Under the pieces are notes generated by a model. It did not search any database, had not been told where the DNA came from, and was given only the letters and a program-made list of their open reading frames with translations. Positions 39,315 through 43,303 of a stretch of 64,000 nt of DNA are shown piece by piece; the first letter of the stretch is position 1; each line of letters opens with the position of its first letter. The position numbers and the translations under genes are program-made. Source of the DNA: Nocardioides marinus (GTDB lineage Bacteria; Pseudomonadota; Alphaproteobacteria; Rhodobacterales; Rhodobacteraceae); the NCBI GenBank assembly GCA_019801415.1, contig JAHVJD010000005.1, positions 62,001 through 126,000 on the forward strand, written 5' to 3'.

Positions 39315-40015
39315 GCGCGATCCTGGCCATCGGCGGCACCGACAGCAGCGGCGGCGCGGGACTGAGCCGCGATGCGGCGATGGCGGCCGCCCTTGGCGTC
39401 ACCCTGCGCCCCGCCGTCACCGCCGTCACCGTGCAGACGAATGCGGCGGTGCTGGCTGTCCACCCCTGCACCGCCGAGGCCGTGGCGGATCAGATCGCTG
39501 CCGCGCTGGCCACGCCCGCGCCGCCCGGCGCGGTGAAGATCGGCATGCTCGGCTCCGCTGCGGTGGCAGATGCGGTGACCAACGCCCTGCCCGACGATCT
39601 GCCCATCGTGCTGGACCCGGTGCTGAAGGCCACCTCTGGCGGGACGTTGATGGCGGCGGGCGGTTTTGGCGCGCTGCTGCGCCGGGTTGCGGTGGTGACC
39701 CCCAACCTGGATGAGCTGGCAGCGCTGTCTGGCTGCAGTGGTGACCCGGCCCGGCAGGCGGCAGCCTTGCTGGCGCAGGGTGTGCAGGCGGTGCTGGTCA
39801 AGGGCGGCCACGGCCGCGGCGCTCTCAGCACCGATGTGCTTTACTGCGCCGATGGCAGCACTGTTGCCTTTGAAAAACCCCGGTTGGGCGTCTCGAAACG
39901 TGGCACCGGCTGCAGCCTGGCCACCGCGATTGCCTGCCATCTGGCCCTGGGCGCGCCGCTTACAGAGACCTGCCGTGCCGCCAAGGAGGCGGTGCACCGC
40001 TGGCTGCAGGAGTGA
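39311..40015 (+). CDS. thiD: Hydroxymethylpyrimidine/phosphomethylpyrimidine kinase ThiD
   Basis: A 234-residue ribokinase-family enzyme phosphorylating HMP-phosphate. Motifs are AIGGTDSSGGAGLSRD at residues 5-20, LDPVLKATSGG near 103 and the anion-hole GTGCSLATAIACHLA near 200. It is about 30 residues shorter than E. coli ThiD but keeps all motifs. It is the last gene of the operon. Its TGA directly abuts the stop of the convergent isochorismatase-like gene (TGATCA), with no room for a terminator. Confidence 0.94.
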   Translation: MSAILAIGGTDSSGGAGLSRDAAMAAALGVTLRPAVTAVTVQTNAAVLAVHPCTAEAVADQIAAALATPAPPGAVKIGMLGSAAVADAVTNALPDDLPIVLDPVLKATSGGTLMAAGGFGALLRRVAVVTPNLDELAALSGCSGDPARQAAALLAQGVQAVLVKGGHGRGALSTDVLYCADGSTVAFEKPRLGVSKRGTGCSLATAIACHLALGAPLTETCRAAKEAVHRWLQE

Positions 40016-40582
40016 TCAGGCAGCGGGCAGCCTCTCCAGTACCTCCGCCGCTGGCAGCACGGTGCCGAAGCCGGCCTGCAGCGCCGACAGAGTCACCTCC
40101 AGCACCACTTCGGCATCCAGGTCGCCGCCCTTGCGCGCAGGCAGGGCAAACGCCACCAGCGCGTCCTCGACGACCTCGATCTCGAAGCCGAGGTTGGCGG
40201 CAGACCGCGCCGTGGAGTTGACGCAGAAGGCAGCAACCCCGCCGACAATCACCAGCCGGGTGACGCCACCCGCCTGCAGATGCGCCGCCAGCCCGGTGCC
40301 GACAAAGCCGGAGGAGCCGGTTTTCCAGAACACCGCCTCCCCTTCCGCAGGGATGGCGCAAGGAAGGGGCTGGCCGCTGGGCAGATCGCGGCGGAACTTG
40401 CTCTCGGACCGGGGATCGTCGTGCAGCACATGCACCACCGGCAGCCCCGCGGCGCGAAACCCCGCCGCCAGTTCCGCCACCCGCTGTTCCGCCTGCGGAT
40501 TGGCCTGCGGCCGACCAGCCGCCGCCACATTGGCCATCTCCTGCTGCATGTCGACAATCAGCAGCGCCGTGTTTTCATACAT
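40016..40582 (-). CDS. Isochorismatase/nicotinamidase-like cysteine hydrolase
   Basis: A 188-residue cytoplasmic hydrolase. The catalytic Asp is in LLIVDMQQEM near residue 11, the Lys in FWKTGSSGF near 83, and the nucleophile Cys in GVAAFCVNSTARSA near 120, giving the family Asp-Lys-Cys triad. The substrate is unknown. The ATG at 40582 has an unusual setting: its GAGGG ribosome site, seven bases upstream, is inside the 3' arm of a perfect 11-bp hairpin with a T-run that looks like the argF terminator. A longer frame upstream to 40651 has no better start. Confidence 0.85.
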   Translation of the reverse strand: MYENTALLIVDMQQEMANVAAAGRPQANPQAEQRVAELAAGFRAAGLPVVHVLHDDPRSESKFRRDLPSGQPLPCAIPAEGEAVFWKTGSSGFVGTGLAAHLQAGGVTRLVIVGGVAAFCVNSTARSAANLGFEIEVVEDALVAFALPARKGGDLDAEVVLEVTLSALQAGFGTVLPAAEVLERLPAA

Positions 40583-40587
40583 CAAAA

Positions 40588-40618
40588 AACCCTCGCGGAG
40601 GCATTCGCCGCGAGGGTT
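40588..40618 (-). terminator. Strong terminator after argF overlapping the next ribosome site
   Basis: Perfect 11-bp stem AACCCTCGCGG/CCGCGAGGGTT with a 9-base loop. On the minus strand it is followed by a T-run ending in TTG just before the ATG of the isochorismatase-like gene. It lies 84 bp past argF. On the plus strand no T-run follows, so it would not stop the thiamine transcript. Confidence 0.9.
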
Positions 40619-40701
40619 GCAGATCCGCGCCGCCGAAGCCAGCGCAAACATGTCGTCAATGCGGCCTCAGCGCCGCAGTGCGGAAAAACCGGGCAGCCGG
40701 T

Positions 40702-41628
40702 TCAACCCTCGAGGCACCAGCGCATGATCGCCTTTTGCGCGTGCAGGCGGTTCTCTGCCTCGTCGAAGATCACCGACTGCGGGCCGTCCATCACGGCGGA
40801 GGTCACCTCTTCTTCGCGGTGCGCGGGCAGGCAATGCATGAACAGCGCATCCGGCTTGGCGTGCGCCATCAGTGCATCGTTCACCTGATAGGGACGCAGC
40901 ATGTTGTGGCGGCGTTCCTTGGAGGACTGGCTGTCGTGCATCGACACCCAGGTATCCGCGACCACCAGGTCGGCGCCCTCGACCGCCTTGGCGGCATCGC
41001 GTTCGATCACCACCTTGGAGCCGGCCTTGCGGGCGAGGCCGATGAACTCCTCCTCCGGGTCCAGCTGCGCCGGGCCGGTAAAGGTTAGGTCGAAGCCGAA
41101 CTGGCCCGCGGCGTGCAGGAAGGAGGCGCAGACGTTGTTGCCGTCCCCGCACCAGACCACCTTCTTGCCCTTGATCGGGCCGCGGTGCTCTTCGTAGGTG
41201 AGGATATCGGCCATGATCTGGCAGGGGTGGGTGCGGTCGGTGAGGCCGTTGATCACCGGCACATCGGCGTATTCCGCCATCTCGGTCAGCACGGTCTCGT
41301 CGAAGGTGCGGATCATGATCATGTCGACATAGCGTGACAGTACGCGAGCGGTGTCGGCGATGGTCTCGCCATGCCCCAGCTGCATGTCCTTGCCCGACAA
41401 AACCATTGTCTGGCCGCCCATCTGGCGCACGCCGACGTCAAAGGATACGCGGGTCCGGGTCGAGGGTTTTTCGAAGATCAGCGCCACCATCCGGTCCTTC
41501 AGCGGCAGCTCGTCGTCGAGCGCGGCCCTTGGGCGCCCCTGGCGCGCCTGCTTTGTGGCGCTGGCCTGATCGATGATCTTGCGCAGGTCGGCCGGGTCGG
41601 TTTTGTGGATGTCGAGGAAATGATTCAT
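40702..41628 (-). CDS. argF: Ornithine carbamoyltransferase
   Basis: A 308-residue enzyme forming citrulline from ornithine and carbamoyl phosphate. The carbamoyl-phosphate motif is [12 protein letters not shown] near residues 53-64, the ornithine-side HPCQ is in [10 protein letters not shown] near 132, and HCLP is in FMHCLPAHR near 268. The ATG at 41628 gives the normal length. It is downstream of argD on the same strand, with a 78-bp gap that holds a dispersed hairpin element. Confidence 0.96.
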
Positions 41629-41706: not shown

Positions 41707-42888
41707 TCAGGGGTTGCCCGCGCTCAGGCTTGTCGCCACCGCGTCCAGACGGCGGTGGGCTTCGGCGATGTCGTCGTCCGTCAGGGTCAGCGGCGGCAGC
41801 AGGCGGATCACGTTGTCCGCAGCCGGGACGGTGATCAGCTCATGCTCGTAGCCTGCCTTCACCACGTCGAGGTTTGCCGCCTTGCACTTCAGCCCCAGCA
41901 TCAGGCCCGCGCCGCGCACCTCCTCGAACACCTCGGGGTGATCGGCGACCAGCCCCTCCAGCTTTTGCCGCAAAAGGCCCGCCTTGCGGTTCACCTCGGC
42001 GAGGAAGGCCGCGTCCGCTATGTGGTCCATTACCGCGCAGCCCACCGCGCAGCCCAAGGGGTTGCCGCCATAGGTGGAGCCATGAGTGCCCGCGGTCATG
42101 CCGCTGGCGGCCTCTTCGGTGGCCAGCACCGCGCCCAGCGGGAAGCCGCCGCCAATGCCCTTGGCCACCATCATGATGTCGGGGGTGATGCCCGCCCACT
42201 CATGGGCAAACAGCTTGCCGGTGCGCCCGACGCCGCATTGCACCTCGTCCAGGATCAAGAGCAGGCCGTGTTCATCGCAGATCGCGCGCAGCGCCTTCAG
42301 CTCGGCATCCGGCACCGCGCGGATGCCACCCTCGCCCTGCACCGGTTCGATCAGGATGGCGGCGGTCTGTTCGGTGATGGCATTGGTCACGCCGTCCAGA
42401 TCGCCGAACATCAGATGCTTGAACCCCGGCAGCAGCGGGCCGAACCCCTTGGTCATCTTCTCCGAGCCTGCCGCGGCAATGCCGGCGGAGGAGCGGCCGT
42501 GGAAGGAGCCGTCGAAGGTGATGATCTCGACCCGCTCCGGCTGGCCTTTGTCATGGAAATACTTGCGCGCCATCTTCACCGCCAGCTCGCAGGATTCGGT
42601 GCCGGAGTTGGTGAAGAACACGGTGTCGGCGAAGCTGTGCTCCACCAGCTTGTCCGCCAGCGCCTGCTGCTGCGGAATGTGGTAGAGGTTGGAGACATGC
42701 CACAGCTTCTGCGCCTGGTTCGTCAGCGCCTCGACCAGCGCCGGATGGGCATGCCCCAGCGCGTTCACCGCAATGCCGGAGCCCAGGTCCAGAAAGCGTC
42801 GCCCGTCGGCCGTGGTCAGCCAGGCGCCTGCGCCTTCGACGAATTCAAGCGGCGCGCGGTTATAGGTTGGCAGAACGGACGGGATCAT
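41707..42888 (-). CDS. argD: Acetylornithine aminotransferase
   Basis: A 393-residue class III PLP aminotransferase of arginine synthesis (acetylornithine to N-acetylglutamate semialdehyde). Motifs are DLGSGIAVNALGHAHP near residue 35, FTNSGTESCELAVKMAR near 92, LDEVQCGVGRTG near 217 and the PLP lysine in MVAKGIGGGFPLG near 248. There is a tandem ATGATCCCG; I choose the second ATG (42888), which has AAGGA eight bases upstream. It is the first gene of argD-argF. Confidence 0.95.
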   Translation of the reverse strand: MIPSVLPTYNRAPLEFVEGAGAWLTTADGRRFLDLGSGIAVNALGHAHPALVEALTNQAQKLWHVSNLYHIPQQQALADKLVEHSFADTVFFTNSGTESCELAVKMARKYFHDKGQPERVEIITFDGSFHGRSSAGIAAAGSEKMTKGFGPLLPGFKHLMFGDLDGVTNAITEQTAAILIEPVQGEGGIRAVPDAELKALRAICDEHGLLLILDEVQCGVGRTGKLFAHEWAGITPDIMMVAKGIGGGFPLGAVLATEEAASGMTAGTHGSTYGGNPLGCAVGCAVMDHIADAAFLAEVNRKAGLLRQKLEGLVADHPEVFEEVRGAGLMLGLKCKAANLDVVKAGYEHELITVPAADNVIRLLPPLTLTDDDIAEAHRRLDAVATSLSAGNP

Positions 42889-43303
42889 CGGGATCATCCT
42901 TTTCAAAGATAGAAGCCAAAGCTGTGACGTAAGCTTGGCCTTGGGTCAACGGTGGAACACTGGTTTCAATTGGGGAATGTGCCACGGGGCGGGCACAACG
43001 GATCAAAGGGCCGGTCACGCCAAGCGGCGTCGGCGTCGCGAGATGGTGATATATGCGCGTTTGATCATAGGCAGATTCCATAACGGAGGATTCGGCAAAA
43101 GAAAACCCTTTTCGGATGCTCATGCGGACAATCCGCCATCCCTGCTCTCGCCCCTGTTGGCTTTGCCTGGATCGGAAACCTGGCAATGGGAGCGGACGCG
43201 CCGCCACGCGTGTCAGCGCGCCGCCAGGTTCCGGCGGCACAATTGGGCCTGCGCCACGTCCTTTCCCCTTGAAACGCGCCTCCGGTTGGCGCACCGCTAC
43301 GCC
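42889..43303. other. 415-bp divergent promoter region, argD / EamA transporter
   Basis: I see no gene in this stretch. The frame of the transporter is open upstream of its ATG, but the sequence is not protein-like and lacks membrane character. It should contain promoters for argD (minus) and the transporter (plus); none could be assigned with confidence. Confidence 0.5.

Follow-up and report, generated by a model that had tools for sequence, protein, structure and literature searches.

An intrinsic terminator that shares its bases with a ribosome site is already known. In the repC attenuator of the Staphylococcus aureus plasmid pT181, the ribosome site is located in the 3' half of the intrinsic terminator, and the reporter results are in favour of control at both the transcriptional and the translational level (PMC5435934). 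The part of that report that deals with E. coli reporters states that use of the ribosome binding site (RBS) that natively occupies the 3' half of this terminator raised the repression from 85% to 98%, and it also mentions earlier work in which pT181 control was judged to be mainly transcriptional (PMC5435934). Barrick and Breaker reported riboswitch terminators that carry the RBS in their 3' side and suggested the attenuation of both processes (PMC2258182). The leader of vmlR in Bacillus subtilis is reported to combine an intrinsic terminator with sequestration of the Shine-Dalgarno (SD) sequence, using the separate hairpins SL-3 and SL-4 and an upstream ORF (PMC9226507). Naville and Gautheret, in 2010, described 18 E. 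coli candidate attenuators located 15 nt or less from the start codon and regarded RBS-sequestering terminators as not yet experimentally demonstrated (PMC2965389). Since 2010, the dual control of pT181 has been reported in reporters (PMC5435934).

The hairpin described in this work is located between argF and an isochorismatase-family hydrolase gene in the window, which is the whole stretch of 64,000 nucleotides that was analysed. It is similar to the pT181 attenuator in having the ribosome site in the 3' half of a terminator-like hairpin. However, the pT181 element is a leader attenuator that is switched by antisense RNA and has its ribosome site 12 nt from the start, whereas the argF-hydrolase hairpin is located between two genes of the chromosome, and nothing was found that would switch it. 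The dual riboswitch platforms also have a terminator, which is so near the gene that the RBS falls within its 3' side, but this locus has neither an aptamer nor an Rfam match. The vmlR leader has two hairpins and an upstream ORF, whereas one hairpin would perform both functions at the argF-hydrolase locus, without a conserved upstream ORF being observed. The leader hairpins of the IS10 and IS50 transposase genes silence the transcripts that come from outside promoters, where the read-through RNA folds over the SD and the RNA from the own promoter does not include the 5' arm. The same logic is proposed here for the hydrolase. Unlike IS10 and IS50, the hydrolase gene is an ordinary chromosomal gene, the hairpin is also terminator-like, and the own start site is putative. 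What differs here is the setting, between two genes, with no sensor seen and with the hairpin retained in part of one roseobacter lineage; its function is putative. A literature search with the words of this locus retrieved no paper on the argF-hydrolase hairpin.

The genes at this locus are arranged on the minus strand in the order of argD (41707-42906, upstream of argF), argF (41628-40702), a gap of 119 nt, and the hydrolase gene (40582-40016). The argF gene encodes ornithine carbamoyltransferase (TIGR00658 with 374 bits against a cut-off of 281; PF02729 and PF00185). The hydrolase is a member of the isochorismatase family based on its PF00857 profile score (99 bits), which exceeds the curated cut-off of 27. 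None of the NCBIfam models was matched by the hydrolase at the model's own cut-off. A convergent phosphomethylpyrimidine-kinase-like gene abuts the hydrolase gene without a gap at 40015/40016.

The hairpin consists of the 5' arm AACCCTCGCGG (40608-40618), a loop of 9 nt (40607-40599), and the 3' arm CCGCGAGGGTT (40588-40598), all on the minus strand and with all 11 pairs being Watson-Crick. The SD of the hydrolase gene, GAGGG (40594-40590), is located wholly within the 3' arm, and 7 nt separate it from the ATG (40582-40580). A run of six T (40584-40589) forms both the U-tract of the putative terminator and the spacer between the SD and the ATG, and its first two T are paired in the stem. A single G (40583) separates the T-run from the ATG. 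Direct reading of the sequence bears out the sequence-only reading, which had described a perfect 11-bp stem with a T-run on the minus strand and a GAGGG in the 3' arm at seven bases from the ATG. That reading had also ended the structure two bases before the ATG, which is corrected here to 5 nt for the stem and 1 nt for the T-run.

The 51-nt stretch that includes the hairpin folds at -22.9 kcal/mol compared to -11.9 +/- 2.8 kcal/mol for 200 dinucleotide shuffles (z of -3.9), and none of the 200 shuffles matches its fold energy. The fold of the hairpin is not a product of chance. The stem scores -21.0 kcal/mol in the scan for terminator-like hairpins. It was not listed by the terminator scan of the window, as is expected for a 9-nt loop with the loop limit of 8 of that scan. 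The features of an intrinsic terminator are present in the sequence, with a stable GC-rich hairpin (11-bp stem) that is directly followed by a U-tract (T6). The features of SD sequestration are also present, with GAGGG within the 3' arm and a predicted unpaired probability of 0.00 in the read-through RNA. The pairing of the ribosome site in a transcript that reads through, which had been claimed earlier, is therefore what the folding model predicts.

The label "argF terminator" that was given earlier to this hairpin is too simple. A small hairpin (AACCGG-CTGC-CCGGTT followed by T5; 40684-40702, minus strand) abuts the argF stop, and the strong hairpin starts 83 nt past that stop. The small hairpin scores -6.7 kcal/mol in the hairpin scan, appears in the predicted minimum-energy fold (40702-40684), and may already terminate transcription at this locus. 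The last codons of argF (CGAGGGTT, 40711-40704) could pair without a mismatch with the first 8 nt of this arm on the 5' side (40618-40611), which would be a possible anti-terminator in this genome. This alternative pairing is absent from the minimum-energy fold, and the complementarity was not seen in the argF ends of the relatives that were inspected by eye.

The palindrome core of the hairpin, CCCTCGCG-N3..18-CGCGAGGG, occurs in one place in the 3.89-Mb genome. A dispersed terminator repeat was therefore rejected, as the core is single-copy. The hairpin was also compared to a genome sample of 864 kb, which consists of 40 stretches of 20 kb and the window, with 711 genes predicted by a simple self-trained gene caller. 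The sample contains 114 terminator-like hairpins, and the argF-hydrolase hairpin is the only one that overlaps a same-strand SD position. The remaining hairpins are located 150 nt or less after a same-strand stop (67), inside same-strand genes (13), or elsewhere (33). The predicted accessibility of the hydrolase SD in the full-length leader is the lowest among 709 scored genes, and the hydrolase ranks 3rd by the fixed -13..-6 interval and 12th by the energy of the 45-nt leader.

The hydrolase gene adjoins argF in 15 of the 21 same-genus genomes that were searched, own genome included. The genus is taken to be Leisingera, as several of the same-genus loci are identical to records named as Leisingera. 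Another 15 argF-linked loci belong to other genera or unclassified bins (Pseudophaeobacter, Phaeobacter, Roseobacter, Zongyanglinia, and others). The leader alignment was constructed from 30 rows (29 distinct, as L040 is identical to L042), which are 15 Leisingera rows including the own one and 15 rows from the others. A set of 31 loci includes 10 duplicates of the genus loci and 6 that are too distant for this alignment (53-57% identical), and these were left out. The alignment excludes L019-L029 and L105-L122, where L105-L107 repeat L046, L052, and L053. For some rows, including L001, the script placed the start at a TTG that directly precedes the true start or overlaps with it, and the ends of the extracted stretches shift by a few bases; the gap of L001 reads 116 nt in the hairpin scan and its true length is 119 nt.

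Of the 30 argF-linked orthologs, 16 have a strong hairpin that covers the SD (-16.7 to -27.7 kcal/mol), and the other 14 score -11.6 kcal/mol or weaker. The strong hairpin is found in four of the 15 Leisingera rows (own, L005, L006, and L014) and in 12 of the 15 other rows. The arrangement is thus present in close relatives, and its absence from all of them, which the sequence-only reading had named as an outcome that would count against it, is not what was found. The terminator features including the T-run at the RBS are observed in 14 of the 30 orthologs. All 14 are among the 16 strong rows, and the two others, L038 and L046, have the stem and a paired SD without a proper T-run, which also makes the earlier label too simple. 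The predicted probability that the SD is unpaired in the read-through RNA ranges from 0.00 to 0.18 for the strong hairpins (16 rows) and from 0.02 to 0.62 for the weak ones (14 rows), a contrast that is not clean because the SDs of the weak rows are also partly hidden.

Two rows exhibit peculiar leaders or genes. The gap behind argF is 45 nt in L046 (1438-1506; the same leader as L105), where the hairpin begins almost at the argF stop, and argF translation could open it. The hydrolase match of L055 (Pseudophaeobacter leonis) is 566 nt, which is not a multiple of three, and its frame was not recovered by pattern; this hydrolase is possibly frameshifted.

The ATG at 40582 is likely the start of the hydrolase because the N-termini of the orthologs align there and the longer frame from 40651 is not kept. 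Translation from this upstream in-frame ATG (40651) was rejected. No SD was seen for it, and its frame is not maintained in the relatives because the distance from a conserved TGG (described below) to the ATG is not constant in the 15 Leisingera rows (59 to 62 nt). By reading, nine of the 15 non-Leisingera rows have a start codon immediately behind the T-run, from which the protein would be longer by about 8 codons. We also rejected a conserved upstream frame that would run over the hairpin. In this genome a short frame ends at TGATG, and in the relatives that were inspected by eye this frame is broken or shifted.

The covariation of the arms was assessed in 13 rows that were chosen by kinship, which are 12 non-Leisingera rows and the own row. 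The apical arms in these rows score 6.23 for own pairs compared to 5.04 for exchanged pairs (8 of 20,000 permutations). The rows chosen by energy give 1 of 20,000, which is a biased selection, and the kinship-chosen set was relied upon. No signal of arm covariation was observed within the 15 Leisingera rows (7,536 of 20,000 permutations). With the 11-pair structure held fixed, 78.6% of the cells are formed in the 29 distinct rows compared to 74.5 +/- 1.0% after shuffling (0 of 500), and 35-65% are formed when the structure is slid. The covariation score of the fixed structure is equalled by 4 of 500 shuffles, and the pairs that are changed on both sides are not in excess over the shuffles (246 of 500). 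These shuffle controls are taken as supports and not as probabilities because they ignore relatedness. RNAalifold with all 30 rows gives a weak consensus of 6 pairs at -2.13 kcal/mol. The joint control of read-through and translation, which had been proposed earlier, is therefore a fair inference from the predicted SD pairing and the compensating arm changes in the other genera.

An element upstream of the hairpin is conserved in the alignment of 30 rows. This element, TGG-N15-TCTGC (40619-40641, minus strand; TGG at 40641-40639 and TCTGC at 40623-40619), is a candidate promoter or operator. The TGG is exactly 15 nt ahead of a TCTGC-like box in all 30 rows, and the intervening 15 nt vary. The second box reads exactly TCTGC in 20 of the rows, and the variants are TCGGC (six rows), CCTGT (two rows), TTCGC (one row), and TCTGA (one row). 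The scripted search for the element required the TGG, and a free alignment placed the TGG in the same columns without gaps. The element is maintained where the TGG falls in the argF end (L046) and in the rows without the strong hairpin. No conserved block was seen upstream of the TGG. The two boxes at fixed spacing are candidates for the trace left by a promoter or an operator, and the second box, if read as a -10 element, suggests a transcription start near 40609, which is inside the 5' arm. The RNA modelled from 40609 in this genome has an SD-unpaired probability of 0.57 compared to 0.00 for the read-through RNA, and the medians over the 30 rows are 0.485 and 0.05, respectively. The promoter in the hairpin region, which the sequence-only reading had raised as an alternative, is supported indirectly by the fixed spacing of the two boxes.

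The promoters of the genome sample were also considered. The top spaced dyads in 469 upstream regions are TTG-N20-TAG and TTG-N19-CTA, which probably represent the housekeeping promoter of this organism. The upstream element does not match this enriched TTG-N19/20-CTA/TAG dyad. TGG-N15-TC[T/G]GC was rejected as a common promoter type, with six cases at N15 in the 469 regions compared to two to seven at other spacings. A two-block EM promoter model drifted, with median best scores of 5.06 for the forward and 4.72 for the reverse direction.

We propose, with about an even chance of being right, that this hairpin between two genes has a dual function, by which it terminates argDF, hides the SD of the hydrolase, and leaves the hydrolase to be expressed mainly from its own start. 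RNA polymerase that leaves argDF would meet the hairpin and the U-tract as an intrinsic terminator, and the argDF transcripts would end in the T-run. A transcript that reads through would keep the closed stem that holds the hydrolase SD and would be poorly translated. The hydrolase would thereby be uncoupled from the argDF operon by termination and by the hidden SD in the read-through RNA. It would be expressed mainly from RNA without a complete 5' arm, most likely from a promoter of its own that is a short distance upstream. The transcript would begin near 40609 in the 5' arm, which would free the SD; this is the least secure step of the mechanism. We infer termination, the translational block, and the own promoter and start site, the first two because comparable hairpins such as that of pT181 behave so. 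Read-through would be silenced twice by a terminator that also locks the translation of the gene behind it. It is tentative, and on balance somewhat doubtful, that the hairpin acts as a chromosomal 'one-way insulator' that evolved in this roseobacter lineage, where the hydrolase promoter would fire within the 5' arm of the hairpin that terminates the upstream operon, read-through would be stopped or untranslatable, and the own RNA would be freely translated. If true, an ordinary metabolic gene would use the logic of transposase protection, here combined with the termination of transcription. Because the bases of a terminator may also belong to a ribosome site, the annotation of one should not exclude the other.

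The same sequence may also result from economy without regulation, in which an ordinary terminator and an ordinary SD happen to share bases in a short gap, sufficient RNA escapes or the ribosomes open the stem, and the overlap brings no gain. The pairing of CCCTC with GAGGG readily arises from an SD, and the absence of the strong stem from 11 of the 15 Leisingera rows, whose arms do not covary, is consistent with such economy. However, coverage of an SD by only one of the 114 sampled hairpins, the arm covariation outside Leisingera, and the retention of the stem in 12 of the 15 non-Leisingera rows argue against it, and we regard this explanation as rather unlikely. The stem may instead act within one operon, where the hydrolase is read from argDF, termination is minor, and translation is lowered relative to argF. 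The T-run, which 14 of the 16 strong rows possess, and the distance of 83 nt between the argF stop and the stem in this genome make such a damping role improbable, even though three distant homologs are located 3-29 nt behind argF, the stems of L046 (with its 45-nt gap) and L038 are without a proper T-run, and a terminator located a few base pairs behind a gene is reported to be suppressible by ribosomes (PMC4824070).

A regulated switch, by which a protein, a small RNA, or an alternative pairing opens the stem and turns on read-through and translation together, is the least probable of these explanations and is considered very unlikely. The architecture resembles that reported for the known switches, which are pT181 and the dual riboswitches (PMC5435934, PMC2258182), and CGAGGGTT at the argF end could supply an alternative pairing with the 5' arm. 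Against this, that pairing is found neither in the minimum-energy fold nor by eye in the relatives, no conserved block was seen ahead of the TGG, and the gap is as short as 45 nt in L046. The Rfam search gave no RNA family on this strand in the region and one chance-level match elsewhere (E of 4.9). A riboswitch was rejected, as there is no Rfam family for an aptamer and the gap of L046 measures only 45 nt.

The dual function proposed above can be compared to the history of the gap between argF and the hydrolase gene. Three distant homologs are located directly behind argF, at 3 nt (L119), 15 nt (L019), and 29 nt (L109). The hydrolase gene of L108 follows a DUF1993 gene. These loci are without the hairpin. 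L111 does not fit, with a palindrome in the gap behind argF that is away from the SD. The tree consists of 32 rows, 29 of which are leader rows, with L055 missing. The strong-hairpin label requires three changes on this tree, for example one gain and two losses, and many forks of the tree are weak.

Six Leisingera rows have a terminator-like hairpin (-14.0 to -29.5 kcal/mol) at 23-29 nt behind the argF stop, and the SD hairpin is weak in all six. In six further weak rows (L009, L012, L015, L041, L053, and L054), the gap measures 582-959 nt and includes a further reading frame. Two of these frames were tested. The one in L009 encodes an ACT domain and the one in L053 has a GNAT domain in addition to ACT, which are possibly linked to amino-acid sensing. 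The weak rows L013 and L017 have neither a separate terminator nor an inserted frame, and the gap of L014 has a second terminator-like hairpin in addition to the strong one over the SD. The pattern fits a hairpin that is needed where argF and the hydrolase gene adjoin, but it is not significant, as the loss of the hairpin against separate terminators or inserted genes gives one to three independent contrasts. The relatives with the hairpin, with a weakened hairpin, or with a separate terminator represent a natural experiment on the splitting of one operon in two.

A GC-rich palindromic repeat of roughly 100 nt was observed by eye in the argF-hydrolase gaps of L014 (1270-1400), L005, L006, L009, L012, L013, L015, and L017. 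The copy in L014 matches 10 places in its own genome, nine places in G019, and three places in the genome of the window.
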